33,367 nucleotides of DNA from an uncultured SAR86 cluster bacterium. Lineage in GTDB: Bacteria; Pseudomonadota; Gammaproteobacteria; Magnimaribacterales; Magnimaribacteraceae. Shown here one piece after another: positions 2,114 through 16,665 of the stretch. The DNA lies in the NCBI GenBank assembly GCA_902537425.1, contig CACBBD010000011.1:1-33367 (forward strand), written 5' to 3'. Below the pieces are notes generated by a model. That model did not search any database. It saw nothing but the letters and a program-made list of their open reading frames with translations, and had not been told where the DNA came from. The translations under genes and the position numbers were made by a program. Position 1 is the first letter of the stretch. Each line of letters opens with the position of its first letter.

Positions 2114-2596
2114 ATGTCATTTAGCACCCCCGACTTGTCTGATGCAAATCCAGAGGCTCAGGCCCTTTCCCCTATTCTTAAAAACTTAGGAGGTAAGGAA
2201 ATTTTCTGGGGGAAAATTGAAACGCTTCGATGTCCTGATGACAATTCCTTTGTTAAAGAGCTTTTAAATTCTGAGGGTGGAGGAAAAATTCTTGTTGTGG
2301 ATGCAGATGCTATAACTACAGTCGCATTAATAGGAGATATGATCGCAAAAGCTGGAGTGAAGAATAATTGGAGTGGAATTGTGATAAATGGCTACGTCAG
2401 AGATATAGATGTCCTGAGAAAGCTTAATTTCGGTGTTCAAGCTCTTGGTACAATGCCAGTCAGGAGTGAAAAGAAAAACCAAGGGAAAATAGGGGTAGAT
2501 ATTTCCTTTGGCGGGTTAACTTTTTCAAGCGGTGATTATGTCTATGCAGACAATAATGGACTTTTGCTTAGTAAAAAAGAGTTAAATCTTTCTTAG
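2114..2596 (+). CDS. rraA: RraA family protein (4-hydroxy-4-methyl-2-oxoglutarate aldolase-like / RNase E regulator homologue)
   Basis: 160 residues, the usual RraA length. The opening 'FSTPDLSDANP' and the core 'GIVINGYVRDIDVLRKL.FGVQALGTMPVRSEK' are diagnostic. Arg96-Asp97 match the Arg-Asp pair that binds substrate and divalent metal in HMG/CHA aldolases of this fold, and the C-terminal 'GGLTFSSGDYVYADNNGLLL' is also conserved. In E. coli RraA inhibits RNase E; many other members are class II pyruvate aldolases, and sequence alone does not choose between the two roles. The gene lies 12 nt behind the deacylase-like gene on the same strand, so the two may be co-transcribed. Its last 4 nt overlap tail-to-tail with the end of the ABC permease on the opposite strand. 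Confidence 0.88.
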   Translation: MSFSTPDLSDANPEAQALSPILKNLGGKEIFWGKIETLRCPDDNSFVKELLNSEGGGKILVVDADAITTVALIGDMIAKAGVKNNWSGIVINGYVRDIDVLRKLNFGVQALGTMPVRSEKKNQGKIGVDISFGGLTFSSGDYVYADNNGLLLSKKELNLS

Positions 2597-3777
2597 ATTG
2601 ATCTTAGCGCTTCAGTAATATCTCTTCTAGCAGCATTCCATGCAGGGAACACCCCACCTATAAAACCTACAAGTAATGCCAAGGTGAGTCCTTGTTGAAT
2701 GATCTCTCCTGTAACTGCAAAGGCAAATGCGGTCTGGGAGAAAGAAGCGCCAGCTAGCGTAGAAACAGTGTATCCGTTGAATAATATATAGGCTATAGCT
2801 CCACCTAATAAACCACCGATCGTAGCAAGTAATAAAGCCTCTATCAGTAGCGCAAGTAGAACGGTAGTGCCCTTAAATCCCAGAGCTCGGAGCGTTCCTA
2901 TCTCAACCAATCTTGTAGATACAGCACTATACATGGTATTTAAAGCTGCAAAAACTGCACCGATTGCCATTATATAACCTACTACTTGGCCAAAAACCTT
3001 AATCAAATCTGCTCCAGAGGACTGATTTTCATAAAAGTCACTTTCAGACTGAACTTTGAGCTCTAAGTTTGGGTAACTTTCCACAAATAATCCAACCTCA
3101 TTGAATGAATCTGGAGAATCTAATTTTAAGATCATGCTTGATGCAGAGGCTCCTCTTCTGAAAAGGCCTTGTGCGGTTGCTAAATCAGCCCAGATTTCTG
3201 ACTCGTGAACATCCCCATTACTTGAAAAAATTCCTACAACTGTGGCAAAACTATCTCTTACTTTAATCTGATCTCCAATCTCAAGTCCTTCGTATTGATT
3301 ATTAGCTCCTTTTCCAACTATTATTTCTGCTGTTCCAGTAGTAAAGTTTCTACCCTCGATGATATCAACTTCAGGACGAATTCTAAAACTTGCAGGTTGA
3401 ACCCCTCTGATTGGTAAGTTTGATGTCGATTCCGCACCTTTTTTCTTAAGGTCTATAATTGCAAATAACTCGGCCGCAATCATTGGCTCGCCATCTATAG
3501 ATTCAATACCTGGAGAACTAGAGACAGTATCAAGCTCTGTCATAGCAACTCCACTGCTCAACTCCGAACTTGATCCATCTCTTAGAATAATTACTCTATC
3601 CTTTTCTCCTGTACTAGAAATTGTAGAACTTAGGCCCTCAGCCATGGCTAACAAGGAAACCATGACAGCTACCGACCCAGCTATCCCCACAATGATCACT
3701 AGTGAAGAACCTGATCTCTCTAGAACAGAGCGTAAATTCATATTTGTAACCAATAATACTTGTCTAATAAAACTCAT
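2593..3777 (-). CDS. ABC transporter permease, FtsX/MacB fold (third permease of the operon)
   Basis: 394 residues with the MacB-type layout: an N-terminal membrane segment at about 26-47 ('SSLVIIVGIAGSVAVMVSLL'), a large periplasmic core domain of about 220 residues, and three C-terminal membrane segments forming the FtsX domain, which carries the typical 'RLVEIGTLRALGFKG' coupling motif. It ends 'FPAWNAARRDITEALRSI', the standard ending of the family. It differs clearly from the other two permeases: its N-terminus is of the 'SxxxxxGIxGxVAV' MacB kind and it lacks their shared 'YW..VK.G..RK..RTF.TI' opening. It is the last gene of the operon, starting 1 nt after the preceding permease stops, and no terminator hairpin was seen before it overlaps rraA by 4 nt. 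Substrate unknown. Confidence 0.87.
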   Translation of the reverse strand: MSFIRQVLLVTNMNLRSVLERSGSSLVIIVGIAGSVAVMVSLLAMAEGLSSTISSTGEKDRVIILRDGSSSELSSGVAMTELDTVSSSPGIESIDGEPMIAAELFAIIDLKKKGAESTSNLPIRGVQPASFRIRPEVDIIEGRNFTTGTAEIIVGKGANNQYEGLEIGDQIKVRDSFATVVGIFSSNGDVHESEIWADLATAQGLFRRGASASSMILKLDSPDSFNEVGLFVESYPNLELKVQSESDFYENQSSGADLIKVFGQVVGYIMAIGAVFAALNTMYSAVSTRLVEIGTLRALGFKGTTVLLALLIEALLLATIGGLLGGAIAYILFNGYTVSTLAGASFSQTAFAFAVTGEIIQQGLTLALLVGFIGGVFPAWNAARRDITEALRSI

Positions 3778-3778
3778 A

Positions 3779-4927
3779 TTAATTTTTCCTCAAAGCATCG
3801 ACCACGTTTAATCTCATAGCCGAAAGAGCCGGTAAAACTCCTGATATTAAAGCAGTGATAAAAGCAACTAAGATTGCACTTATTACAATAGATATAGAAA
3901 ACTCTATCTCTCCTGAAAAACCTATGGCCACTCCAGAAAACATAGGGAACAATAGATAAGCTATCAAAACTCCTATTATCGCTCCAGCTACACACAACAA
4001 GAAAGACTCTGCTAAGACAAAGAGCATTATTAATCGATCAGGAAAACCGACTGCCTTCAATGCACCTAGTTCGGGAGTTCTCTCTCTAACTGCCTGGCTC
4101 ATAGTATTTCCTGTTAATAAAAGGATTGTGAAAAAAGAAGCAGCCAAAACTGAATTAATAATTAAGCCTATATTTCCAATTTGTTCAGCAAACATACGAC
4201 TGAAAGCTTCCTCTGTAGACGTCTTTGTTTCATCTAAAGAGTTCTTAAATAGCTCATCTATCTCCTTTGCAATAGATTCAGCCTGCTCTGGATTTTTTAT
4301 TTTCACTATATAGTTACCAGGTCTACCCGTTTCATAAAGTCTAGCCTCATCAAAATATTTCCAATTAATAAATGCTTCATCTTGTTCGCCACTGGTGTTA
4401 TTTATATATGTGCCCACAAGATCAAACTCCCAAACACCTCCGCCCTTCTTAGGCCATATGTCAGCAATAATAGGAATCCTATCTCCTATTTTCCATCCAA
4501 ACTGATCAGCTAAATCTTTCCCGACGATCATCCCTGTAATGTTTCGTGAAAAGGCTTCTTGCGCTCCTTCACTCAACTCCCATTCAGGATAAACATCAAA
4601 ATAATTATCTGGAACAGGCCATTTTGGAAAAAAGTTTTGTCTTTCTTTGTAAGTACCTCCAAACCATTGACGCCAAACAACAGTATCTACACCTTCTACC
4701 ATTTCTATTCTATTTTTATGAGCCATTGGAAGAGATTCAGTAAAAGCAAGCCGAGACACAACTATGAGTCTATCTTGTCCGGCAAAATCTACCTCACTAT
4801 TAAAAGCTACGGCAACTGATCTTCCCAAAGAAAACAACAAGAATGCAGTGGCGATTGAAAAAATAGTCATAAAAGTTCTAATCTTTTTACGATTTATGCC
4901 TGATTTAACGATCATCCAATATTTCAT
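3779..4927 (-). CDS. ABC transporter permease, FtsX/MacB fold (second permease)
   Basis: 382 residues. An N-terminal membrane anchor (about 18-40) is followed by a periplasmic MacB-like core and three C-terminal membrane helices. The coupling motif 'RERTPELGALKAVGFPD' and the terminal 'ALSAMRLNVVDALRKN' are typical of FtsX-domain permeases that pump through an adaptor or extract lipids or lipoproteins instead of forming a channel. The N-terminus lines up almost residue by residue with that of the permease encoded just upstream ('RKKIRTFMTIFSIATAFLLF' against 'RKRLRTFLTIMSMFIAFVLY'), so the two look like tandem duplicates. The start codon shares one base with the preceding stop (overlap at 4927), which suggests translational coupling and fixed stoichiometry. 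Confidence 0.87.
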   Translation of the reverse strand: MKYWMIVKSGINRKKIRTFMTIFSIATAFLLFSLGRSVAVAFNSEVDFAGQDRLIVVSRLAFTESLPMAHKNRIEMVEGVDTVVWRQWFGGTYKERQNFFPKWPVPDNYFDVYPEWELSEGAQEAFSRNITGMIVGKDLADQFGWKIGDRIPIIADIWPKKGGGVWEFDLVGTYINNTSGEQDEAFINWKYFDEARLYETGRPGNYIVKIKNPEQAESIAKEIDELFKNSLDETKTSTEEAFSRMFAEQIGNIGLIINSVLAASFFTILLLTGNTMSQAVRERTPELGALKAVGFPDRLIMLFVLAESFLLCVAGAIIGVLIAYLLFPMFSGVAIGFSGEIEFSISIVISAILVAFITALISGVLPALSAMRLNVVDALRKN

Positions 4928-6078
4928 TATCCCTCCCTAAGTGCATCTACAACTCTTAAGCGCAAGGCTTGATAAGCTGGAACAACAGCAGACATGAGTG
5001 CAATTAATAATCCTATCAGGAAACCACCTAAAACTATTTCTAGCGATATAGAAACTGTATCTTCCAATATACCGCCCGACATTATTTCTATGGCCGGAAT
5101 AATTAAAGCTGTAACCAATAAGCCCATCAGTACAGCAGAGAAACAAATTGTGACAGCTTCTAAAATGACCGAGATAAAAATAATATTGTCTTTATAACCA
5201 AGGCACTTAAGCACTCCTATGTCGCTTGTTCTTTCTCTTATAGATTGAGCAAGCGTATTTGAGGAAACCAGCAATATGGTAAAAAATACAGATAACAGTA
5301 TTGAATTCACAATTAATTCAACATCTGCAATTTCTCCTGCCATTTCGACTGCAATCATTGATTCAGGACCTGATCTTGTAGCATAAGAAGAATTCATGAA
5401 CTGCTCATCAATTTGTTTGGAAATTTTTTCACCCACTTCAGGGGAAGTGGCTTTGACCATAATCGTGCCTAAAGTTCCCTTTTCACTCATTCTAGCTTCA
5501 TCAAAAGCAGGCCAATTTATTATCGCTCCTAACTCATCTCCTTTAATTTGTTTTGCTGTGTAAAATCCCACAACCTCAAAGGACCAATTGTAAGTTCCAT
5601 CTATATTTAGCGATGATGATTCTGTGTTTAATCTATCTCCTATTTTTAGACCCTTCTGATCTGCCATCAGCTGACCAACTATTGTGGCATTTGGATTACT
5701 TTTTAAAGCAAGTATGGCTTGTTCCGTTGCTTCAAATCTATCATATACATCGAAAAAATTTGGGCTAACGGCATAAGCGACTCCTTCCATCATACTTTCT
5801 ATGCTATCTGATATAAGAAAATCCATGTACATCACTTCCTCAACGCCTTCTAGCGTTTCTATGTAATTAACGTGAGAATAAGGCAGTTTTCCCAGCATAT
5901 TGTATCTGGGCATAACTATTATGTTATCCGCAGAAAGGCCCTCTATAGAACCTGTAAAAAGGCCAGAAAGGGTATTTAAGGATCCGTACAGTACGAATGC
6001 AATAAACATAGACATTATTGTCAAAAAAGTTCTTAGTCTTTTTCTTATTAATCCTATCTTTACTAAGGTCCAATACAT
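4927..6078 (-). CDS. ABC transporter permease, FtsX/MacB fold (first permease)
   Basis: 383 residues with one N-terminal membrane segment (about 17-38), a periplasmic core of about 200 residues, and three C-terminal membrane segments. The coupling helix is 'RERTSDIGVLKCLGYKD' and the tail 'YQALRLRVVDALREG' is the FtsX-family signature. The ATG overlaps the stop of the ATPase gene by one base, so the permease should be made together with its motor. It is a close paralogue of the permease that follows. In known MacB-like transporters two FtsX permeases pair with two ATPase copies; this gene and its neighbour could form a heterodimer, leaving the third permease for a second assembly, but this is inference. 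Substrate unknown. Confidence 0.87.
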   Translation of the reverse strand: MYWTLVKIGLIRKRLRTFLTIMSMFIAFVLYGSLNTLSGLFTGSIEGLSADNIIVMPRYNMLGKLPYSHVNYIETLEGVEEVMYMDFLISDSIESMMEGVAYAVSPNFFDVYDRFEATEQAILALKSNPNATIVGQLMADQKGLKIGDRLNTESSSLNIDGTYNWSFEVVGFYTAKQIKGDELGAIINWPAFDEARMSEKGTLGTIMVKATSPEVGEKISKQIDEQFMNSSYATRSGPESMIAVEMAGEIADVELIVNSILLSVFFTILLVSSNTLAQSIRERTSDIGVLKCLGYKDNIIFISVILEAVTICFSAVLMGLLVTALIIPAIEIMSGGILEDTVSISLEIVLGGFLIGLLIALMSAVVPAYQALRLRVVDALREG

Positions 6079-6752
6079 TAAGATGTAAGTTTTCCTTTGT
6101 CTAAATGTAAAGTCCTCTTGGCAGATTCAGCAGCTACTGGATCATGAGTTACCATTAAGATGGTTTTGCCATGGTCGCGGTTTAATATCTGCAAGAGTTC
6201 TAATATTTCAGTAGCAGTATCTCGGTCCAGGTCACCTGTTGGCTCGTCACAAACCAATATGCCAGGATCTGAAACAAGCGCTCTAGCAATTGCCACTCTT
6301 TGTTGTTGCCCGCCAGAAAGCTCATTAGGCTTATGACCTCCTCTATCAGAAAGACCGACAACATCAAGAGCTGTAGTCACATGTTCCTTTCTTTGAGAGC
6401 TAGAAAGATTGGTTAAGAGAAGAGGGATCTCTATATTTTTATTGGCAGTTAAAACTGGAAGAAGATTATAGAATTGAAAAATAAAACCTATATTAGTTGC
6501 TCTCCAGTCACTTAAGCCAGATGGGCTCATTTGTTCGAGGTGCTCTCCATTGACAACAACCTGTCCAGAAGTGGGTGAATCAAGTCCACCTATAAGGTTT
6601 AAAAGGGTTGATTTTCCCGAACCAGAAGGTCCCATAAGAGCAAGAAAATCCCCTTTGGGTACCTCTAAGCTAAGGTCGTCTAATACAACAAGCGTTTCTC
6701 TTCCTCTTTCGTATGTTTTATTTACGGACTGAACCTCAATTAAGTTAGACAT
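6078..6752 (-). CDS. ABC transporter ATP-binding protein (MacB/LolD type)
   Basis: 224 residues, the usual length of stand-alone LolD/FtsE/MacB-type ATPases. All motor motifs are intact: Walker A 'GPSGSGKST' near residue 41, Q-loop 'FIFQFYNLLP', the signature 'LSGGQQQRVAIARAL', Walker B 'ILVCDEPTGDLD' and the switch histidine in 'MVTHD'. The 'GDLDRDTATEILELL' stretch after Walker B is typical of the exporter branch that partners FtsX-fold permeases. It lies between the adaptor gene (13-nt gap) and the first permease (1-nt overlap), so it is the energy source for the whole set. Active ATPase is expected. Confidence 0.93.
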   Translation of the reverse strand: MSNLIEVQSVNKTYERGRETLVVLDDLSLEVPKGDFLALMGPSGSGKSTLLNLIGGLDSPTSGQVVVNGEHLEQMSPSGLSDWRATNIGFIFQFYNLLPVLTANKNIEIPLLLTNLSSSQRKEHVTTALDVVGLSDRGGHKPNELSGGQQQRVAIARALVSDPGILVCDEPTGDLDRDTATEILELLQILNRDHGKTILMVTHDPVAAESAKRTLHLDKGKLTS

Positions 6753-6765
6753 GATTACCTCTTTT

Positions 6766-7911
6766 TTATTTTATTATTACTTGTTGATTGTTTTCTAATT
6801 CATTATCAAATATCGCCACCACAGTCATTCCTGATTTCAGACCATCTATTACTCTTGCATAATTTGCAGTTTCTTCGGCAACCTCTACTTTTGTGAGCCG
6901 AATTTTTGATCCTTCGAGCGCTTGAACAACTGACTGATCATCTTTAATAGCCACAGCCGCTAAAGGAATCATTACACCCTCTTTAACAATTTCAGGGCTT
7001 TTATTTTCTACTTTCCTCAAGAAAGACACTCTACTGCCCATATCGGGTAGAACCCTTTCATCCTTTTCAAGAAGAGCAATTCTAACTTTTACGGTTGCTT
7101 TGTTTCTATCAGCCGTAGGAATAATTGCTATAACTTCAGATGGTATGTCCCATTTAGGATATGCATTTAAATTTGTTATGACAGGTTGGCCTGGCTTTAC
7201 TCGATTTATGAAGGCTTCATTTACATCTACTTCAACTTCAAGAGAATCCATGTCAACAATTGTACAGATACCTGTATTAGTAAATCCGCCTCCAGCTGAG
7301 ACTGGAGATATCATTTCGCCTGGCTGAGCTGCTTTGTATACAACCACTCCACTAAATGGAGCTAATATTTTCATATCTTGCACAACTTGCTTCCTAATAG
7401 CATTCAAGGCCTCTAAACCCTCTACAGAAGCCCTAGCTGCATCTAAAGCGGCCTGACTAGCTAGCTCATCTTTTGCCAATTCCTGAGTTCGATTAAATAT
7501 TCGCTTAGCTTCATTGAGTTGCGACTGTGAGTAATTCAAATCAGCTTGCATTGTACTATCGTCGAGTTGAGCTAATATTTGACCTTCCTCAACATACATA
7601 CCTTCCTCTATAAATACCTTCATAACCTTTCCAGTCATTTTAGAAGAAACTGTTGCCCTCCTTCTAGCGACTACATAGCCTGAGGCATCAAGAATACTTG
7701 TAGCTGAAGCATCTGACATTTCAAGAGACTTAACTGTGAAAGTAGTCACTTCTTTAAGTTCATCATCTGATAAAAATAACCACCAAAAAAGGCTTACGAT
7801 CAGAACAGATATGGCAAGTAAATATAGTTTACTAGACTGTTGTCCTCCAGCTGCAGGAGGAGCAGATCTATCTATCTTTAAGTTATTGAGTAAATTTTCT
7901 CTATCACTCAT
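6766..7911 (-). CDS. HlyD/MacA-type periplasmic adaptor (membrane fusion protein)
   Basis: 381 residues. A single membrane anchor at about 28-47 ('LYLLAISVLIVSLFWWLFL') follows a 27-residue cytoplasmic tail. Next come a barrel-sandwich (lipoyl-like) half 'TGKVMKVFIEEGMYVEEGQILAQLD', an alpha-hairpin coiled coil (about 120-165), the returning half 'ILAPFSGVVVYKAAQPGEMISP', and beta-barrel and membrane-proximal domains to about 375. This is the standard order for adaptors that bridge an inner-membrane ABC pump to outer partners. It starts immediately after the cytochrome gene ends, with no gap, which ties the exporter to the cytochrome/beta-helix pair. No TolC-like outer-membrane gene is in the window, so the exit duct is either encoded elsewhere or not used. 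Confidence 0.9.
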   Translation of the reverse strand: MSDRENLLNNLKIDRSAPPAAGGQQSSKLYLLAISVLIVSLFWWLFLSDDELKEVTTFTVKSLEMSDASATSILDASGYVVARRRATVSSKMTGKVMKVFIEEGMYVEEGQILAQLDDSTMQADLNYSQSQLNEAKRIFNRTQELAKDELASQAALDAARASVEGLEALNAIRKQVVQDMKILAPFSGVVVYKAAQPGEMISPVSAGGGFTNTGICTIVDMDSLEVEVDVNEAFINRVKPGQPVITNLNAYPKWDIPSEVIAIIPTADRNKATVKVRIALLEKDERVLPDMGSRVSFLRKVENKSPEIVKEGVMIPLAAVAIKDDQSVVQALEGSKIRLTKVEVAEETANYARVIDGLKSGMTVVAIFDNELENNQQVIIK

Positions 7912-8949
7912 CTAAGTATCCATATTATCAATCCACTTCTCTATGAGCTCAACAGCCTCATGATGCATTAAGGATCTACCAGACTCTGGCATCATGACTC
8001 CGGGATCCGTTGAAATCATTCTGTGCAAAAGTATAGATTCTCTAGAATTTCCAGGTGCAATGGAAAACTTATGTCCTCCACTTCCCCTTCCTGTAGCAAC
8101 TGGCTTTTTATTAATTCCTAAATGCTTAGGTCGACTTTCAGTTAAGTCTAAGTAGAGTCCAGTAGAGTTAGCCCCTCCCGTTGAAATATGACAATGGCCA
8201 CAATTAATATCTAAATAAGATCTAACTCTGTCGTCCAAAGAATAAGTTTCGTCACTCCAATCGACAGGTGTATTAAGATCAATTTCAATACCGTCTATGT
8301 AATCAAGTCTCATCCATTTAGTTAATTGATTAATTGATCCGTCTTGATAATCAAATACTTTATTGAGATTCCTTGCTTTTGGTCCAATTGGCATTACGGC
8401 ATCATTATAAGAATGACATTCTTTACACTGATTTTTATTAGGTACTCTGTATCTTACTGATCGATTCTCACCTTCAAAATCTATCCATTCATTAAGGATT
8501 GTTTTGCCGGCTTTTTTTATAAATGCCTCATTTTGTTCATCATTCCAAGCATAAGATACAGCTTCCCAGCCTGTTTGCTTTCTAAGTAACAATCTTGTCT
8601 CCATGAGTCTCTTTCCAAGGGATAAATTTCTTTCATCAACTGGATAATAAAAGGTTTTAATCAAAGCTGATCCTACAGGAAAGTTAAATACCTGATCTTT
8701 TCTAAAGGATGCCTTTTTACCCTCTGGTATATATACCCATCTTTGTTTATAGGAGTAGTCAGAAAAAAGTGAAGAAATTAACTCATATGGAACAACTCTT
8801 TCAGACGGGATTTGAGCTTGAGAATCTTTAAAGAATGAAAATTCTGATAGTTTTTTAGGAAATTTTTCCTGTAAAATTATTTCATTTTCAATAGCATACA
8901 GAAAATTTATAGTAAAAGTTATTAGAAAAAATAATGTCAATTTTTTCAT
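7912..8949 (-). CDS. Exported diheme c-type cytochrome, SO_2930 / HNE_0200-like family (function unknown)
   Basis: 345 residues with an N-terminal signal peptide (about 1-19, 'LFFLITFTINFLYA') and two CxxCH heme-attachment sites: CKECH at 175-179 and CGHCH at 250-254. A late 'PGVMMPESG' near 316-324 could supply an axial methionine. I recognise it from memory as the family that is regularly encoded beside a parallel beta-helix protein (the TIGR03806 partner of TIGR03805), whose function has not been established. It probably works in the periplasm or at the outer membrane and needs the cytochrome c maturation machinery. It begins 5 nt after the beta-helix gene and abuts the adaptor gene with no spacer. 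Heme content is secure; the redox partner and substrate are unknown. Confidence 0.85.
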   Translation of the reverse strand: MKKLTLFFLITFTINFLYAIENEIILQEKFPKKLSEFSFFKDSQAQIPSERVVPYELISSLFSDYSYKQRWVYIPEGKKASFRKDQVFNFPVGSALIKTFYYPVDERNLSLGKRLMETRLLLRKQTGWEAVSYAWNDEQNEAFIKKAGKTILNEWIDFEGENRSVRYRVPNKNQCKECHSYNDAVMPIGPKARNLNKVFDYQDGSINQLTKWMRLDYIDGIEIDLNTPVDWSDETYSLDDRVRSYLDINCGHCHISTGGANSTGLYLDLTESRPKHLGINKKPVATGRGSGGHKFSIAPGNSRESILLHRMISTDPGVMMPESGRSLMHHEAVELIEKWIDNMDT

Positions 8950-8954
8950 AGCTC

Positions 8955-10169
8955 TTAATTCAAAATCACCTCTGGTAAGGGCCTAACTTTCCCTTCATAG
9001 GCTTTTATATCTCTCTCCACTGGATCAAAAAAAGGGAGGATATATTTGATTGGATTAAGTGTTAAAAAAGTTGCATCTCCATTATTTGAAATAACAAGTC
9101 GTTCATCATCGGGTTGTCCGAATATGATTTGGTTCATTGGCAGGATCCCATCCCAAAATATATCGGGCATGTTTCCATCAGAGAGTTCAAATAGTATTGC
9201 TGCAAGTTCTCCCGTATTTATATCTGGATTAAAACCGCCGTCACCAAATCTATTTCCGTGAATCTGAATGGACTTAGGGTGAGGATTATAGTTTTCATCG
9301 TCAGTTGCATAACCATAAGTGACTATAGAGAGATTCACAGTGCCATTTCCGTATATGTCATTATCAAATACTTCAACATCAGAATTAGCTTGAATTATTA
9401 TTCCAGTGCCCCTTGGCACTTCTCCGACTATGTTGCCTTCTGGAGCAAAGTTATCTGTATCATTATTAATAGCTTTATTTCTAAAGACTCTTACATTATG
9501 ACCACCTTGTTGGGGTAAATCAGGAAGATCAAACACCAAGATCCCTCCTGTATTATGTGAAGCTAAATTATCAAATACATCCGCGTAATAAGAATTTTCT
9601 ATCTCAATTCCAGCCACATTATATTGAGCAATACTATTTTTAACGATTATGTTCCTAGACTGTCCAACGTAAATGCCCGCATCTGAGGCCCCTATGGCCA
9701 CACAACCGTCTATAAGGACATTTTGCGACTCGACAGGATAAAACCCATAGGCTCCATTGGTTTCCTTTGGTCCGCCAGTCCATTCCGTTCGTAGACGAAT
9801 CATATTTATTCCGTCAGCTCCAATTACCTTAATAGCATCTCCTGTAGCATCCAAAATGGCAAAGTCTCGAAGAGTAACTCCGTCAGAAGTAACTAAAAGA
9901 CCTTGAGCTCCAGATATTTGATTTCCAAAGTTTAATATTGTGTCGTTTATTCCAGATCCCTCAAAAATAACATCATCAATATCTAAAGAAATACCATCCT
10001 CAAAAAAATATTCTCCAGGCTCCAAGGTAAGCACATCACCAGGTTGCATTTCTATGAGCGCTTCCTGTATTTTCTCGGAAGAATTCTCGCTTGGACCAAG
10101 CAAAAGTTGTCTTGCTTCCAAAGCAAAAGAAGAGACACTTAGTAAGAAGAATAGAAAGAAATTTTGCAT
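8955..10169 (-). CDS. Exported parallel beta-helix repeat protein (partner of the diheme cytochrome)
   Basis: 404 residues with a short signal peptide (about 1-18, 'FFLFFLLSVSSFALEA') and a long run of right-handed beta-helix coils of the NosD/pectate-lyase kind from about 65 to 290. These show as repeated '.NV.I.G....GASDAGIYVGQSRNIIVKNS.A..N.AGIEIENS' type turns with aligned Asn, Gly and Ile. The 'LEPGEYFFEDGISLDIDDVIFEGSG' opening is typical of the TIGR03805-type family, known as half of a two-gene pair with a diheme cytochrome. It is the first gene of the seven-gene minus-strand operon, with a perfect TATAAT about 30 nt upstream and GGGG just before the ATG. No catalytic residues can be assigned; it may bind or cleave carbohydrate, or act as a scaffold. 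Confidence 0.82.
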   Translation of the reverse strand: MQNFFLFFLLSVSSFALEARQLLLGPSENSSEKIQEALIEMQPGDVLTLEPGEYFFEDGISLDIDDVIFEGSGINDTILNFGNQISGAQGLLVTSDGVTLRDFAILDATGDAIKVIGADGINMIRLRTEWTGGPKETNGAYGFYPVESQNVLIDGCVAIGASDAGIYVGQSRNIIVKNSIAQYNVAGIEIENSYYADVFDNLASHNTGGILVFDLPDLPQQGGHNVRVFRNKAINNDTDNFAPEGNIVGEVPRGTGIIIQANSDVEVFDNDIYGNGTVNLSIVTYGYATDDENYNPHPKSIQIHGNRFGDGGFNPDINTGELAAILFELSDGNMPDIFWDGILPMNQIIFGQPDDERLVISNNGDATFLTLNPIKYILPFFDPVERDIKAYEGKVRPLPEVILN

Positions 10170-10200
10170 TTTTCCCCATTTTTACAATATTTATATGCTA

Positions 10201-10206
10201 ATTATA
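10201..10206 (-). promoter_or_regulatory. Candidate -10 element for the beta-helix/cytochrome/exporter operon
   Basis: On the minus strand this hexamer reads TATAAT, a perfect sigma-70 -10 box, 31 nt before the beta-helix start codon. The predicted transcript would begin about 25 nt upstream of the ATG. Only weak matches to a -35 box occur at 16-18 nt spacing (for example CATAAC), so an activator may be needed. The whole divergent region 10170-10300 is very AT-rich, and by chance such hexamers are common, so this is a candidate only. Confidence 0.4.
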
Positions 10207-10300
10207 GTAGATTTATATAAAAGTTATGAGTTATAAAATTTACAGAACTTTTTTATTTCTATTTTCCTGATAAAGTTTGTAAAAGTAAGGATTAGATAAT

Positions 10301-10756
10301 ATGAACTTTGAGACAATAATAATAATTTTGCAAACTGTTGGACCATTTACAGTATTAGTTACTGTCTACTTTCTTGTAACAGAGTTAAAAGAGCAAAATA
10401 GAGTAGCTAGAGCAAATGCAAGGCAGAATATTGCAGATAGCCACCAAAAACTTACATTAGCGGGCCTGAATAAAAGACTAATTGAAATTAAAGTAAAACT
10501 GAGAAAAGGAGAAGAGCTCACTGAAGAAGAAGATGCAGCTTACTTAACCCACTTTTCAGCGATACTTAGAGCAAGACAAAGCCAACACTATCAATACACT
10601 ATTGGAATGCTCGATGAATCAGAATGGTCAGCAATGCTCTCCTCTTTTAGAACGCTTTTAAAAGATCAAAAAAACTTAGAGATATGGACATGGGTATCAC
10701 CGACCTTTCCAGAAGACTTTGTTGAGTTGGTAGAAAAAGAAAGAATGAAAATATAG
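10301..10756 (+). CDS. Small membrane-anchored protein of unknown function
   Basis: 151 residues that I do not recognise by family. One hydrophobic segment at about 5-26 ('TIIIILQTVGPFTVLVTVYF') would anchor it in the inner membrane. The rest is charged and helical: 'ELKEQNRVARANARQNIADSHQKL' looks amphipathic and may be a short coiled coil, followed by acidic and aromatic stretches. Proteins of this general plan (one membrane helix, about 150 residues, conserved ARQN..DSHQ region) are common hypotheticals in marine proteobacteria. AAGGA lies about 9 nt before the ATG. It is the first gene of the plus-strand signalling operon, 12 nt ahead of the EAL gene, so a role in sensing or localising c-di-GMP signalling is possible but is inference. 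Confidence 0.7.
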   Translation: MNFETIIIILQTVGPFTVLVTVYFLVTELKEQNRVARANARQNIADSHQKLTLAGLNKRLIEIKVKLRKGEELTEEEDAAYLTHFSAILRARQSQHYQYTIGMLDESEWSAMLSSFRTLLKDQKNLEIWTWVSPTFPEDFVELVEKERMKI

Positions 10757-10768
10757 GTAACGCAAATA

Positions 10769-11854
10769 ATGAAGAATGAACATCTGGATTACTTATTTAG
10801 ATCCTTAAAGCATCATCCAAGCCCTTATATAATTTACGATCTCGATGGCTCTATTAGATGGATAAATTTAGCTGCTGAGTATATTTTTAGAACAGAAGAT
10901 ATTTCTGAAATAGGAATAAAAAAGATTAACCTCGAAGAAAATGAGGTCAGTAAAGACCTTATTGCTCAATCTTATTCTACTCCTGTTGAAGTCAGACTGA
11001 GAGAGATTGAGTTTTTTATGAAGACAAGAGTTCACTTAATACCCTCTGAATCTTCTAAAGACTTTATGTTGGTTGAAGTTTTATGTAATTCAAGACTAGG
11101 TTTAGAAGCTCTTAGGCAAACAATTTCTTGTATAGAGTATGACAGAATCGATCTAGCTTATCAGAAGCAATATGACTTAAAAACTGGCCAAATTACTGGT
11201 GTGGAGGCCCTACTCCGATTAAGAGATGAAGAAGGTCAAATTATTCCAAATGATGTGATCATTCCTGAAATAGAAGGGGAAAGTTTATTTTCATTAGTTG
11301 TAAAGTCTTCGTTAGAAAAACTCAAAGAGATATTTGCTATCAAATCAGAGATAGGACTAGAAAACGCAACCATTTACCTCAATGTCTCTGCTCATACAAT
11401 AATGCATCCTGAATTTAGTTCTATTTTTTCTAATTTTGTAGACGAAATGGGATTTAAAAAGAATGAGTTTGGCCTTGAGGTTACAGAAACAGCTGAATTA
11501 AGTAGCACTGAACAAGCCGGGTTATACCTTCAAAGATTGAAGGATAGTGGAATCAAAATAGCACTAGATGACTTTGGTGCAGGCTATGCGTCTTTGCGGT
11601 ATGTAAAGGATTTACCTCTAGACGTTATAAAATTGGATAAACACTTCACAAATGGTTTAGATGACCAAGCAACAGCGAAATTAATTGGTTTTGTTGTAGA
11701 AGTTTGCAACTCCCTTTCTTTAGAAATGATAGGAGAAGGTATTGAAACCGAGGAGCAAAAAAAACAAATGCTTGAAATAGGATGTGCTATAGGACAAGGA
11801 TATCTGATGCACAAACCTGAATTTATTGAAACACTTAAAAATCAGAATGGATAA
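10769..11854 (+). CDS. PAS-EAL cyclic-di-GMP phosphodiesterase
   Basis: 361 residues. A PAS-like sensor domain covers about 10-105 ('YIIYDLDGSIRWINLAAEYIF'), then an EAL domain runs from about 115 to 355. Every residue normally needed for c-di-GMP hydrolysis can be read: Glu146 of 'VEALLRL', Asn205 in 'LNVSAH', Glu237 in 'LEVTET', Asp267-Asp268 in 'LDDFGAGYAS', Lys288 in 'IKLDK', Glu323 in 'GEGIET' and Gln343 in 'GQGYLMHKP'. It should therefore be an active enzyme making pGpG. AGGTAA precedes the ATG. Its stop overlaps the start region of the next gene, a GGDEF cyclase, by 8 nt, so the opposing enzymes are translationally coupled. No membrane segment is present, so it is cytosolic. Confidence 0.9.
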   Translation: MKNEHLDYLFRSLKHHPSPYIIYDLDGSIRWINLAAEYIFRTEDISEIGIKKINLEENEVSKDLIAQSYSTPVEVRLREIEFFMKTRVHLIPSESSKDFMLVEVLCNSRLGLEALRQTISCIEYDRIDLAYQKQYDLKTGQITGVEALLRLRDEEGQIIPNDVIIPEIEGESLFSLVVKSSLEKLKEIFAIKSEIGLENATIYLNVSAHTIMHPEFSSIFSNFVDEMGFKKNEFGLEVTETAELSSTEQAGLYLQRLKDSGIKIALDDFGAGYASLRYVKDLPLDVIKLDKHFTNGLDDQATAKLIGFVVEVCNSLSLEMIGEGIETEEQKKQMLEIGCAIGQGYLMHKPEFIETLKNQNG

Positions 11855-13301
11855 GATATCAAAAAATAAAACCTCTAAAGGTGCAGAAGAAATTTTACTA
11901 GCACAAATAAAACAGGAATTTACTACACCTGCAGACGCAATTTCTGATTATCTAGAACTTGTAGAAAAAACACTCCTTGAAGCTCAAATCTCAATGGAAG
12001 ACGAGATTGAGCAAATAAAATCAGGCTGCAAAAGATTAATTGATCAATACGAAGAAGCATTTACAGAAAATACTGGTCCAAATGCAACTACTGTGAAGAA
12101 GACCCCCGAAGAATATTCTGAATTGAGACATAATTTAAGAACTCCTTTAAATGCAATTATCGGTTATAGCGAAATACTCATAGAAGACTTAGAAGATGAC
12201 TTAAGCGAAGAATCTTTAAAAGATTTACAAAGTATTATCGAGTTATCAAGAGAAACAGAAACGGCAATTGAAAACTTTGTTGATTATATTCGCGGAGAAG
12301 CCATTAAGACTTCGGAAGGAGATTCTCAGCTTGAATCTGCTGAGTCACTATTTAAGTCTCTAGGAGATATTAACTATTCTCTTGAACTAGATGAAAGCCT
12401 CGAAGGGGCTGACATTTTAATCGTCGATGATAATAAAACAAATTGTGAGGTTCTTGAAAGACGTCTAACAATGCAAGGTTTACAATGCAGAACTGCCTAT
12501 GACGGAACAACAGCCATCAAGAAAGTGGAGGAAAAATTACCAGACTTAATTCTTCTTGATGTTATCCTTCCTGATATAAATGGACTTGAGCTTCTTAAGA
12601 AATTTAGAAGCGAGAATACCAGCGAGAATCTCCCCATCATAATGGTTTCGGCATTCAATGATGTAGATGGTATTGCAAAATGCATACAGCTAGGAGCACA
12701 AGACTATCTTCCAAAACCGCTCAATGGAACTATCTTACTCGCAAAGGTAATTTCGTCTTTAGAAAGAAAATTTTTTAGAGAAAGAGAGAAAGAGTTAGTA
12801 AATAAATTACACATACAGGCTACTACAGATCAATTGACAGGTATTTCAAATAGAAGAGTAGTCTTTGAAGAGCTCGAGAATTCATATGCTGAGTTACAAT
12901 CTGGGCATAAAAAGGATTTCTCCGTAATAATGATTGATATTGATTTCTTCAAATCGGTTAATGACACATACGGACACTCAGGAGGGGATGAAGTCCTCAA
13001 GGCCATGGCGAATGTTTTAAAAAATTATATAAGTGAACCTAATATAGTTGGAAGAATTGGTGGTGAAGAATTCCTTGCGGTAATATTTGATCAAGAAGAT
13101 ATAGAAACCTACTGTGATAATTTGCGTAGGGAGATTCATACCATAAAAGTTTTCTATGAAGATCATGAAATCTCCATAACTGCTAGTGGAGGTGTCGCAA
13201 TCACTTCAGAGTCTGGAAACGCGTCAGATGTTATAAACAAAGCTGATGAAAGGCTGTATGATGCTAAGAAATCAGGAAGAGATAAATTTGTTATTAGTTA
13301 A
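11847..13301 (+). CDS. HisKA-receiver-GGDEF diguanylate cyclase without an ATPase domain
   Basis: 484 residues from the ATG at 11847; an upstream TTG at 11826 would add 7 residues but is less likely. A helical segment at 15-65 resembles a degenerate histidine-kinase dimerisation domain (Gln23 where His is expected in 'KQEFTTPADAI'). A proper HisKA box follows with His95 in 'RHNLRTPLNAIIGYSEIL', a receiver domain (about 187-305, phospho-acceptor Asp238, Lys290-Pro), and a GGDEF domain with active-site GGEEF at 405-409. No HATPase_c domain follows the HisKA, so it cannot autophosphorylate as a classical kinase. The four residues at the inhibitory I-site position are SEPN and not RxxD, so product inhibition is not expected. 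The layout recalls PleD, with phosphorylation switching on c-di-GMP synthesis. It overlaps the EAL gene by 8 nt. Confidence 0.87.
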   Translation: MDKISKNKTSKGAEEILLAQIKQEFTTPADAISDYLELVEKTLLEAQISMEDEIEQIKSGCKRLIDQYEEAFTENTGPNATTVKKTPEEYSELRHNLRTPLNAIIGYSEILIEDLEDDLSEESLKDLQSIIELSRETETAIENFVDYIRGEAIKTSEGDSQLESAESLFKSLGDINYSLELDESLEGADILIVDDNKTNCEVLERRLTMQGLQCRTAYDGTTAIKKVEEKLPDLILLDVILPDINGLELLKKFRSENTSENLPIIMVSAFNDVDGIAKCIQLGAQDYLPKPLNGTILLAKVISSLERKFFREREKELVNKLHIQATTDQLTGISNRRVVFEELENSYAELQSGHKKDFSVIMIDIDFFKSVNDTYGHSGGDEVLKAMANVLKNYISEPNIVGRIGGEEFLAVIFDQEDIETYCDNLRREIHTIKVFYEDHEISITASGGVAITSESGNASDVINKADERLYDAKKSGRDKFVIS

Positions 13302-13315
13302 TAGTGGAGATGTAG

Positions 13316-13678
13316 ATGGCAAAAATTTTGTATGTTGAAGATAACGAAATGAATAGAGATATGTTGTCAAGAAGATTACAGAGAAGAGATCACGAGATAT
13401 TACTAGCATTTGATGGAAAAGAAGGGCTTGATATGATGAAATCTGAAAAACCTGATTTAGTCCTTATGGACATGGGTCTACCCGTGATGGATGGATGGGA
13501 AGCAACAACAACAGCTAAAGGGGATCCAGAAATAAAAGATATACCAATAATAGCTCTAACCGCTCATGCCTTAGAATCTGATAGAGTCAAAGCCTTAGAT
13601 TGCGGTGCTGATGATTTCGATACTAAACCGGTAGACTTCAAAAGGTTACTGGAAAAAATAGAAGGACTCTTAGGATAA
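13316..13678 (+). CDS. Single-domain response regulator (stand-alone receiver)
   Basis: 120 residues, one CheY-like receiver and nothing else. The acidic pair is Glu8-Asp9, the phospho-acceptor Asp52 is in 'LVLMDMGLPVMDGWE', the switch Thr82 in 'IIALTAHA' and the conserved Lys104-Pro in 'DTKPVD'. The 'LYVEDNEMNRDML' and 'MDMGLPVMDGWEAT' stretches place it near the DivK-like group that relays phosphate between kinases and cyclases. It lies 14 nt after the GGDEF gene with a GGAG ribosome site, and its stop is only a few bases from the end of the convergent hybrid kinase gene. A relay role between that kinase and the cyclase is a reasonable inference. Confidence 0.9.
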   Translation: MAKILYVEDNEMNRDMLSRRLQRRDHEILLAFDGKEGLDMMKSEKPDLVLMDMGLPVMDGWEATTTAKGDPEIKDIPIIALTAHALESDRVKALDCGADDFDTKPVDFKRLLEKIEGLLG

Positions 13679-13683
13679 GATTC

Positions 13684-16665
13684 TTATTGATTGTAGATAT
13701 TAGTAACTATAGCTGAGAGTTCGTCCATAGAAACCTCGTCTTTCTTAACCATTCCTGCGACATTCTTTTCAAGCATCTCTCTTTGTACTTCCGTTAAATC
13801 TTTGCCTGAATATACAAGCACAGGTGCTCTTTCCGTTTCATTAAATTCCTTCATATAATTCTCTAAGAATTCAAATCCATCCATTCGTGGCATCTCTAGA
13901 TCAAGAACAATCAAGTTGGGATTTTTATTTAATTTTTCTAAGCCCTCTTTACCATCTTTGGCAGTATCAAATTTAAAGCCAGCATCACTTAGCATTCGTG
14001 ACAGTAAATCACGAACATCGGCATCATCATCAATAATTAGAACGGTTCCATCGTGATCAGTTGAAGAGATATGTTTAGATACCGTTTCTAAGAATAAATC
14101 TCTATTGATTGGTTTTGTTAAATAATCGTCGGCTCCTAGTGATTGAGATAAAACATCTTGTGATAATTGGCTCACCATAACTACAGGCATATCCTTTAGT
14201 TCAGGATCACTTTTACATTCCTTCAATATTGACCACCCGTCTCTTCCGGGCATCAAAACATCTAAAAGAAGTAACTTTGGTTTCATCTCTCTTACAATCT
14301 GCATACCCTTTTCACTATCTACAGCGCCTACTAACTTTAAACCAATCTTTGATAAGGTTCTACGTATAAGATCATGCATAGCGACATCATCATCAATCAG
14401 AACTACTATCTTTTCTTCTTCTGTAAGTTTGTCGATTGTATTACCTTGCTCTAATTCATCATAATCTTGAGGACATTCTCTTGGAACATATAATGTAAAG
14501 ACTGATCCAACGCCGAGCTCACTGGTTACAATCACGTCACCCCCCATCATCTCAGCTAATTTTTTAGTGATAGGCAGTCCAAGTCCTGTTCCGCCATGCT
14601 TCGCTGATGTTGATCTTTCAGCTTGTTCATATTCTCTAAAGACTTTGCTTAAACCCTCTTCAGACATTCCTTCACCAGTATCCGATACAGAAAATCTGAT
14701 CATCTCTACATCTTGCTCAAAAAAGGTATCTACATCTAGGGTAACAGTACCATTAGAAGTAAATTTAAATCCATTGCTCAAAAAGTTAGTCAGACATTGT
14801 CGAATTTTTGTTTCATCTTGAGTCATGGACCCAAGAGCATCTTCTAAATTAACTTTGAAACCATTGTCATTTGTAGCAGCAAGAGGGCCTGTAACATCCT
14901 TTATCGTATCAACCATCCCCTCTATCTCGAAACTAGTCAAGTACAGCTCCATTCTTCCAGCTTCTATCTTAGAAATATCTAGAATATTGTTAATAAGAGA
15001 TAACAGGTGACTTCCGGCTGAAGTGATTTTTTTTAGATCAGGAAGTAAATCATCATAACCTAGGTCCTCACAATCCTCTGCTAACATTTCTCCATAACCG
15101 AGGATTGCATTTAAAGGTGTTCTTAGTTCATGGCTCATGTTGGCAAAAAATCTAGTTTTTTCTGCATTTGCATCCCTTGCTTCATCCCTAGAAGTCTCCA
15201 TTTCACTCGTACGGGCAGAAATCAAAGCATTCACCTCATCCGACATTCTTGAGAAAGCTAAAGACATTAATTCAACCGAAGCTTCTTCATTACCTGCTCC
15301 ATCACCTTCTTTTGCTAACTCGGTCATTTTTTTGATATCTTCGAGAATAAGTTTCTGAGCATCGCCTTCTAACTGGTCGGCTAGGAAAGACATTTTTTCA
15401 ATGATTACCCTATCTCTTTCTTTCCTTCTTTTTGCCTGTTGTTTTCTAATGTCTTCCATCTCCAATAGATGACCTCTGTAACTGTGAAGAGCCGTAGAAA
15501 GATGACCTACTTCATCATTTTTGGATGCTAAAAGTCCATGGCGTTCTGGCATCTTCTGAGTATGGTCTCCTTGTGTTAAACCTTCTAAGACTGCAATTGC
15601 TCGTGTGATTCCTCCAAAAGTTCTATATGTAATGTAAGCAGTTAATCCGACAATGAATAAAATCATAAGAGCTGAGAGAAAATAACTCCTTGCAAGAACT
15701 TCAGAGGCCCTTTCCATGGCTAACTTTTCATCTTTAAATATAAATAATTCTGCCTTATCTGACGATAAGTAAGTACTCAGTGGAATTAAAGTAATAGAAG
15801 TTCCAAGATCAGCATCCTTCGAGCTATGCCTGCTTCCATTTTCTTTCATCAACAAATTAGCTTTTTCTACATTTTGAGAGTAATTCTCAATACCGAATCT
15901 TGACTCAGAGCTGAAATCATCTGATGAATAGTCTTCTTCAAGTGAAATCAGTCCTTCAGGAGTCTTTATACCCGTCCTTACCTCAAATTCATCTTCAAAA
16001 ATCTCAATTGCCTTTCTCACATCCACTCCTAAAATTATGTTGGCAAAAGTTTCTTGATTAACTTTTATTGGAAATGAATAAGTTTGATTTAAAGTAGCCG
16101 TTTGGACATTATCAGCATCCAGTATCTTTAAGGTCGATTGTCTTGGTCTTTCTGAGATATCTTTAATGTGAGAATCTAAATAAGAAAAAAACTCAGGTCT
16201 GGCTTTAGGACTACAGGCATCTATGCCAAGTAAATCTAATGCGCTGCCACAATAAAATCTTTGACCATTTGGAAAGTAAGCCATTACAAAACTTAACTCA
16301 CCATCGTCCAATTCCTCTTCAAATATATATTCAATTAAGTACTGAAGATCTCCAAGAGATCGGTTTTCTATAGTGTTGAAAATTGGATTCAAATAATTGC
16401 CTGAAGAATCAACTTCGTCTATGAAAGTTTCATCATCTGGATCCCATATATCTCCTTTTTCCCCAAAACCTGGAAGCCAGCTTGCCATAGACTCATAAGT
16501 ACCATTGAACGTTTGATACCAAGCTGACTCATAAAGCACTACTAAGGATTCACCCGCGGCGTCTTCTTGAATTGAGTCTCTACTATCTGTAGAAAAATAG
16601 AAGACTACTGTTACTAGCAGATACCCCACCACTACGAACAGCAGAAGTTGCAGTCTAATTGACAT
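13684..16665 (-). CDS. Membrane hybrid sensor histidine kinase with two C-terminal receivers
   Basis: 993 residues. The order is membrane segment 1 (about 6-24), a periplasmic sensor of about 300 residues (family not recognised), membrane segment 2 (about 328-348), HAMP (about 349-401), a coiled region, HisKA with His512 in 'MSHELRTPLNAILGYGEML', and HATPase_c with N-box 'LTNFLSNGFKFT' (Asn631), G1 'SDTGEGM' (Asp662) and G2 'HGGTGLGL' (690-697). Two receivers follow, with phospho-acceptors Asp802 ('LLLDVLMPGRDG') and Asp922 ('IVLDLEMPRMDG'). The second receiver ends in 'GMVKKDE' instead of the usual Lys-Pro. There is no Hpt domain, so phosphate may go to a separate protein. It converges on the c-di-GMP/receiver operon with a 5-nt gap and follows a TonB-domain gene by 24 nt on the same strand. 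Confidence 0.92.
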   Translation of the reverse strand: MSIRLQLLLFVVVGYLLVTVVFYFSTDSRDSIQEDAAGESLVVLYESAWYQTFNGTYESMASWLPGFGEKGDIWDPDDETFIDEVDSSGNYLNPIFNTIENRSLGDLQYLIEYIFEEELDDGELSFVMAYFPNGQRFYCGSALDLLGIDACSPKARPEFFSYLDSHIKDISERPRQSTLKILDADNVQTATLNQTYSFPIKVNQETFANIILGVDVRKAIEIFEDEFEVRTGIKTPEGLISLEEDYSSDDFSSESRFGIENYSQNVEKANLLMKENGSRHSSKDADLGTSITLIPLSTYLSSDKAELFIFKDEKLAMERASEVLARSYFLSALMILFIVGLTAYITYRTFGGITRAIAVLEGLTQGDHTQKMPERHGLLASKNDEVGHLSTALHSYRGHLLEMEDIRKQQAKRRKERDRVIIEKMSFLADQLEGDAQKLILEDIKKMTELAKEGDGAGNEEASVELMSLAFSRMSDEVNALISARTSEMETSRDEARDANAEKTRFFANMSHELRTPLNAILGYGEMLAEDCEDLGYDDLLPDLKKITSAGSHLLSLINNILDISKIEAGRMELYLTSFEIEGMVDTIKDVTGPLAATNDNGFKVNLEDALGSMTQDETKIRQCLTNFLSNGFKFTSNGTVTLDVDTFFEQDVEMIRFSVSDTGEGMSEEGLSKVFREYEQAERSTSAKHGGTGLGLPITKKLAEMMGGDVIVTSELGVGSVFTLYVPRECPQDYDELEQGNTIDKLTEEEKIVVLIDDDVAMHDLIRRTLSKIGLKLVGAVDSEKGMQIVREMKPKLLLLDVLMPGRDGWSILKECKSDPELKDMPVVMVSQLSQDVLSQSLGADDYLTKPINRDLFLETVSKHISSTDHDGTVLIIDDDADVRDLLSRMLSDAGFKFDTAKDGKEGLEKLNKNPNLIVLDLEMPRMDGFEFLENYMKEFNETERAPVLVYSGKDLTEVQREMLEKNVAGMVKKDEVSMDELSAIVTNIYNQ

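Follow-up and report, generated by a model that had tools for sequence, protein, structure and literature searches.

MacAB-TolC exporters, in which MacB itself holds ATPase and permease in one chain, and the protein pair defined by the families TIGR03805 (beta-helix) and TIGR03806 (cytochrome) are the closest described counterparts of a row of seven genes that we analysed in a 33,367-nucleotide stretch of DNA, the whole of which is called the window below. It comes from an uncultured bacterium of SAR86, an abundant and mostly uncultured ocean lineage (GenBank assembly GCA_902537425.1, a 1.34-Mb draft in 33 contigs that is 74% complete; contig CACBBD010000011.1, positions 1 to 33,367). For Shewanella oneidensis, SO_2930 and SO_2931 are listed among the c-type cytochromes of the outer membrane or the extracellular space (PMC4837345), and SO2931, whose link to the pair family is putative, appears in another study as an outer-membrane multiheme cytochrome deleted along with others (PMC5829830). 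The available parts of these two papers and of PMC10986466 and PMC5955497 state no function for the pair, and titles and abstracts of the literature on TIGR03805, TIGR03806, SO_2930 and SO_2931 do not describe it with an exporter. In the window the pair is followed by the genes of an adaptor and an ATP-binding cassette (ABC) exporter, and we consider it likely that these are two separable modules, joined behind a single upstream region in one family of SAR86, neither of which requires the other.

Seven open reading frames (ORFs) on the minus strand (10169-2593) encode, in this order, the beta-helix protein, the cytochrome, the adaptor, the ATPase and the permeases FtsX1, FtsX2 and FtsX3 (Table 1). 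Successive gaps or overlaps are 5 (beta-helix to cytochrome), 0 (cytochrome to adaptor), 13, -1, -1 and 1 nt, and both ORFs and library models bear out the seven-gene, one-strand arrangement of the first-pass annotation. Both members of the pair exceed the curated cut-offs of their families (TIGR03805, 392.3 bits against 141.5; TIGR03806, 367.9 against 313.3) and stand in the usual gene order, and the cytochrome has two CxxCH sites. The adaptor scores 165.8 bits with TIGR01730 (cut-off 94.9), and all three permeases exceed the Pfam cut-offs for MacB_PCD and FtsX, as the ATPase does that for ABC_tran. The block resembles MacAB-TolC exporters in its RND-MFP adaptor and in permeases with a MacB periplasmic core and FtsX, and differs from them in its separate ATPase, its three distinct permease genes and the lack of a channel gene within the block. 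The adaptor hairpin carries the partly conserved pattern R-x3-L-x6-S, a putative TolC-contacting motif, and two sites of the genome outside the block match OEP (TolC-type) models. Two candidate identities for the exporter were rejected: MacB proper (PRK10535, 212.2 against a cut-off of 966, with the ATPase here a separate gene) and LolCDE (LolD, 238.6 against 307.75; LolCE, 43.4 for FtsX3, 47.8 for FtsX2 and 25 for FtsX1, against 362.45).

That the genes are so tightly coupled had been read at first pass as a sign of one machine, an argument of little force in this window, where 10 of 17 same-strand neighbour pairs outside the block (ORFs of at least 90 aa with ATG starts, whole window) are also spaced -30 to 13 nt. 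Tight spacing within the block is not unusual here and proves little by itself. Between 2400 and 10400 there was no excess of promoter-like sites (27, against 24.0 with a standard deviation of 5.3 in shuffles) or of terminator-like sites (4, against 5.2 with a standard deviation of 2.6). The seven genes may form one transcript, and the pair and the exporter are probably co-transcribed.

Next, we compared the surroundings of the pair in a wider set, the nearest 80 of at least 581 cytochrome relatives from a scan of species genomes, which leans to near relatives and in which cytochrome and partner were scored by tblastn. The pair proved recurrent, as the first-pass annotation had it: at 74 of the 80 loci the cytochrome gene is preceded, on its own strand, by the beta-helix gene (median gap of matches, 32.5 bp); two of the other six are cut by contig ends, and four, from Bacteroidetes, have no beta-helix match. 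It occurs in Proteobacteria and Bacteroidetes. At least 1.5 kb of downstream sequence, where an adaptor would show, is present at 76 loci, and the adaptor is missing beside the pair in 73 of them; the three wider-set loci with an adaptor are all SAR86-type blocks. Within the order we sampled 61 genomes in four families, namely the window's own family, f1 (35 genomes), and f2-f4 (26 genomes), and the exporter is missing in all 8 pair-bearing genomes of the sister families f2 and f3. The pair locus of one further genome (L220 in G105) likewise has no exporter.

Conversely, the adaptor profile (A3) matches other Gammaproteobacteria, whose adaptors align to it over nearly their full length (339-376 bits in five genomes). 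Ten of 13 fetched outside loci are ordered adaptor-ATPase-FtsX2-FtsX3, and the pair was seen in none of the 13. Such exporters (L207, L208 and L210, for example) share with the window the gene order and an L(K/R)IDR stretch at the adaptor N-terminus, and differ from it in having two permeases instead of three and no adjoining pair. Because pair and exporter each occur without the other in relatives, the seven genes do not make up one obligate machine. The first-pass annotation had held that the link would be chance adjacency if relatives usually carried the two sets apart and each without the other, and outside f1 this is how they are found.

Within f1, the join is real and extends across six genera. 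The cytochrome exceeds its cut-off in 33 of the 61 order genomes (25 of 35 in f1, 8 of 26 in f2-f4), and an adaptor orthologue (>440 bits) is present in 27 f1 genomes, which span these genera, and in none of the 26 outside f1, where the best match reaches 63 bits and 29%; FtsX1 likewise has no match above 40 bits in those 26. In 25 of the 27 adaptor-bearing genomes the cytochrome gene adjoins the adaptor gene and the beta-helix gene lies upstream, so that the joining of pair to exporter claimed at first pass stands for this family and not beyond it: among sampled genomes, an exporter following the pair is confined to f1. The two exceptions are G003, in which a cytochrome end lies at the contig edge, and G017, which has no pair. 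The eight f1 genomes without the adaptor (completeness 50-86%) also have no cytochrome match. In the f1 stretches that were read, the permease genes and the RraA and amidohydrolase genes are also retained beside the block, and the flank on the beta-helix side varies between genomes (c42/c43 or c34/LldD) while the block holds together.

Individual f1 genomes depart from this pattern in small ways. In G030, cytochrome and adaptor are about 860 bp apart, with a 218-aa ORF in this interval (L061:8308-9168), and FtsX1-FtsX2 read as a single 769-aa frame, by fusion or assembly fault; the beta-helix and cytochrome genes of G024 are separated by a small gene that is methyltransferase-like by eye (L064:14989-15755). 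FtsX1 of G031 has an internal stop and FtsX2 of G033 is in two frames (draft faults or decay), contig ends cut the permease block in G023 and G028, and the cytochrome end of G003 (L183:3-277) is spread over two frames at the contig start, through decay or assembly error.

The exporter also stands without the pair in G017, a genome of the window's genus that is 89% complete and has no TIGR03806 match anywhere. Its adaptor lies 275 bp from the next gene, against 2,389 bp in the window. Alignment of this 275-bp scar recovers the beginning of the beta-helix gene and the tail of the cytochrome gene, with additional changes. All five exporter genes are intact (94-98% identity), with ratios of non-synonymous to synonymous substitution rates (dN/dS) relative to the sibling genome G015 of 0.031 for FtsX3, 0.034 for FtsX2, 0.064 for FtsX1, 0.000 for the ATPase and 0.055 for the adaptor; five flanking genes gave 0.024-0.155. 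Judged by these ratios, which few events carry because G017 and G015 are little diverged, the G017 exporter is under purifying selection after loss of the pair.

Trees point to movement of the pair as well. In the cytochrome and concatenated trees, the f2 pairs L071, L075 and L076 branch inside f1 together with the named loci L103 and L108, which in the beta-helix and concatenated tests were assigned to f2 by first-tree position and gene order. Holding f1 as one clade costs 23 log units in the concatenated tree (approximately unbiased test, p-AU 0.023), in a test run once the first tree was known and on a group chosen after it; the beta-helix tree alone does not reject a single f1 clade (p-AU 0.07), and beta-helix and cytochrome trees give different sister groups. 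These trees are suggestive of transfer of the pair into some f2 genomes, and of the pair alone, because those genomes have no exporter. In the FtsX tree, built with 11 of 13 f1 loci (L061, with its fused frame, and L079, with a split frame, were left out), FtsX3 and its outside counterparts form one group (100/100). The other half of the tree holds FtsX1 together with FtsX2 and the outside FtsX2; within it FtsX1 is a separate clade (100/100), with a nearest neighbour that the tree does not settle.

Several observations weigh against two modules indifferent to each other. The linkage in f1, kept in 25 of 27 genomes while adaptor identity falls to 56%, exceeds what indifference predicts, and G017 is a single, little-diverged draft genome. 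Pair and adaptor also co-occur by genome beyond f1. Among 397 phylum genomes (own excluded), the cytochrome is above cut-off in 36 and the adaptor (at least 250 bits) present in 18; the cytochrome is found in 6 of these 18 against 30 of the 379 others (p = 0.003), and in the class, with 273 genomes, 5 carry an adaptor (>310 bits) and these include 3 of the 4 that carry the pair (p = 1e-5), both p values ignoring kinship. The two samples share G072 and G224, and family f16 supplies three of the six phylum genomes with both, as well as three further genomes with the adaptor alone. Seven sampled genomes outside f1 have both (G072, G224, G226, G441, G473, G601 and G620): G620 carries pair and adaptor on a single contig, 2.9 Mb from each other, and in the others they are on separate contigs. 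We treat this co-occurrence as a lead only, and a functional link of pair and exporter within f1 is possible.

The strongest alternative, although we think it unlikely, is that the block is a frozen neighbourhood without functional meaning, a chance rearrangement kept in a slow-changing region of small genomes. Tight gaps are common across the window, and the genes for RraA and the amidohydrolase, which converge on the block and are probably unrelated to it, have been kept beside it too, which also tempers the weight of the linkage; the flank on the other side, however, has changed while the block persisted. The single machine of the first-pass annotation, in which the pair would, for example, oxidise or reduce a lipid, glycan or metabolite and the pump expel that same compound, we regard as improbable. 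The linkage in f1, the 0-nt gap between cytochrome and adaptor and the co-occurrence beyond f1 all favour it, but elsewhere each half occurs without the other, the exporter of G017 is intact despite loss of the pair, an ORF parts cytochrome from adaptor in G030, and some f2 genomes apparently received the pair alone. A more specific version, a redox-coupled secretion system with a P460-like two-heme enzyme on a glycan-binding beta-helix, a three-permease exporter that expels the product, and the halves encoded apart in some other bacteria, as the co-occurrence by genome would reflect, seems a shade less credible still. A NosDFY-like arrangement, in which the beta-helix docks on an ABC transporter, as in the NosDFY architecture, and either the cytochrome or its heme or a metal would be the client that is matured, is very hard to credit: the beta-helix exceeds the Pfam NosD cut-off (33.6 against 23.6) and 45 of 45 relatives match NosD (E up to 1, best 6e-15), but it scores only 29.2 bits with the NosD family model TIGR04247 (cut-off 300), the permeases match FtsX/MacB models, and the pair is found elsewhere without this ABC system.

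Three loci that might have represented independent joins of pair and exporter were rejected, none having an adaptor. In L114, two FtsX genes and a LolD-like ATPase gene (LolCDE by eye) lie upstream with an opposite-strand gene between; in L083, two FtsX genes and an ATPase gene (LolA-linked by eye) lie about 3 kb off behind other genes; L178 has one gene of FtsX type, on the opposite strand. We also rejected a third partner that recurs with the pair, neighbourhoods varying by lineage with no gene common to most loci; nearby genes are, by eye, sterol-desaturase-like, DUF2147-like, sulfatase-like, TonB-type or dapB-like. The sterol-desaturase/fatty-acid-hydroxylase-like gene (by eye) stands near the pair, on either side, in 17 loci (L066, L074-L076, L084, L086, L103-L109, L111-L113 and L118), and a lipid link for the pair through this neighbour is possible.

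Returning to the reading of two separable modules, the two proteins of the first probably belong together. Three single ORFs (1,025-1,046 aa) from three gammaproteobacterial families match the beta-helix profile in their N-terminal part and the cytochrome profile in their C-terminal part, and these natural fusions argue that beta-helix and cytochrome work as a single unit. The AlphaFold2 model of the beta-helix (predicted local distance difference test, pLDDT, 94.3) has among its top folds in the PDB the polysaccharide lyase RbmB and the mannuronan epimerase AlgE4, and the many invariant residues in the beta-helix alignment suggest a ligand or catalytic face. Residues 138-146 (window 9732-9758) read NGAYGFYPV, of which all 45 rows keep N138, G139, Y141, Y144, P145 and V146; a tentative likeness is to YGFDPH, the motif of AlgE-type epimerases, with other residues in place of its Asp and His. 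In many Gammaproteobacteria the SO2930 domain sits in far longer ORFs (about 700-2,371 aa; L084, L086-L088, L090, L091, L093-L097 and L099), some with adhesion-like repeats by eye, and at G534:C1:1503620-1507134 and G647:C29:32242-34538 two SO2930-type cytochromes lie near each other, one in an 886-aa frame.

Cytochrome P460 is characterised by a lysine-heme cross-link and a 460-nm band, and we lean towards a relationship between the P460/c'-beta family and the first half of the window cytochrome. A PDB sequence search found no match for the cytochrome, and a PDB fold search (Foldseek) with its AlphaFold2 model (pLDDT 92.8) returned nothing at E ≤0.001; P460/c'-beta structures made up seven of its first 12 matches, including rank 1. 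Likewise, PF16694 (cytochrome P460) is the first Pfam match of the protein (E 0.01), and 21 of 50 relatives also match it with E values of at most 10 (best 9e-4). In local mode, hhalign against a P460 profile (20 family proteins out of 24 loci fetched) gave 75.9 and 77.8% with two cytochrome alignments that overlap each other, 64.1% with the first half alone and 14.2% with the second half; the unrelated alignments that served as controls gave 1.0% (beta-helix) and 0.3% (adaptor). A low-stringency alignment sets CKECH on the P460 heme motif, in register. In the profile comparison, the invariant K98 falls on a Lys of the P460-family profile. The likeness is thus concordant by three methods, each weak alone, and all signals lie below usual thresholds: the rank-1 Foldseek match has E 0.02 and template modelling (TM) scores of 0.16/0.33, PF16694 scores 16.7 bits under a cut-off of 27, and hhalign in global mode gave only 19.5% for the first half. 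Cytochrom_C, a general model, is matched by 48 of 50 relatives, a larger number than for PF16694. The window protein also differs from P460/c'-beta in its second heme domain and its beta-helix partner.

Taken together, the first module would be a redox unit of two secreted proteins, namely a beta-helix and a cytochrome bearing two covalent heme sites, the first, on moderate evidence, in a P460/c'-beta-like beta-sheet domain and the second in a small c-type domain. The first heme may react with a small substrate and the second may exchange electrons with the respiratory chain, to or from it, while the beta-helix may hold the unit or bind a glycan-like ligand. The second module is, by the families of its proteins, a MacAB-like exporter with an adaptor, one LolD-like ATPase and MacB/FtsX permeases, which may drive a substrate out of the periplasm by way of a TolC-like channel whose gene lies elsewhere.

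Table 1 Features of the seven-gene block and its upstream region (window positions)
Feature	Position	Strand	Remark
Beta-helix protein, secreted, right-handed, TIGR03805 family, 404 aa	8955..10169	-	signal peptide by eye
Diheme c-type cytochrome, secreted, TIGR03806/SO2930 family, 345 aa	7912..8949	-	signal peptide by eye
Cytochrome residues 65-181, P460/c'-beta-like, includes heme site 1	8407..8757	-	several methods, each weak alone
Heme site 1, CKECH	8413..8427	-	both Cys and His invariant in 50/50 rows of alignment A5
Heme site 2, CGHCH	8188..8202	-	both Cys and final His invariant in 50/50 rows of A5
Periplasmic adaptor, HlyD/RND-MFP type, 381 aa	6766..7911	-	N-terminal LKI(D/N) stretch conserved
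Adaptor hairpin, R-x3-L-x6-S	7456..7491	-	L145 and S152 invariant in 12/12 rows, R141 in 9/12
ABC ATPase, LolD/MacB-like, 224 aa	6078..6752	-	library models
Permease FtsX1, MacB_PCD and FtsX, extra FtsX2-type paralogue	4927..6078	-	absent from 10 outside four-gene loci
Permease FtsX2, MacB_PCD and FtsX	3779..4927	-	counterpart in outside exporters
Permease FtsX3, MacB_PCD and FtsX	2593..3777	-	counterpart in outside exporters
Divergent intergenic region, 131 bp, 5' of block, likely promoter region	10170..10300	.	largely kept in G017

At the other end of the block, FtsX3 and the RraA-like gene converge and share 4 nt at their stops (window 2593-2596), and there is therefore no terminator space between the two genes. 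Window positions 10301-16665 hold signalling genes (EAL, GGDEF with receiver, receiver and a large histidine kinase, named by eye), a block that adjoins the pair in some relatives and not in others. No relatives were found in viral contigs.

With the pair independent of the pump, a misleading clue to its function is gone, and the cytochrome, through its P460-like first half, offers a concrete, spectroscopically testable idea of its chemistry. G017 is a natural experiment in this SAR86 family, and the block is a clear case of a gene row made from two separable parts.

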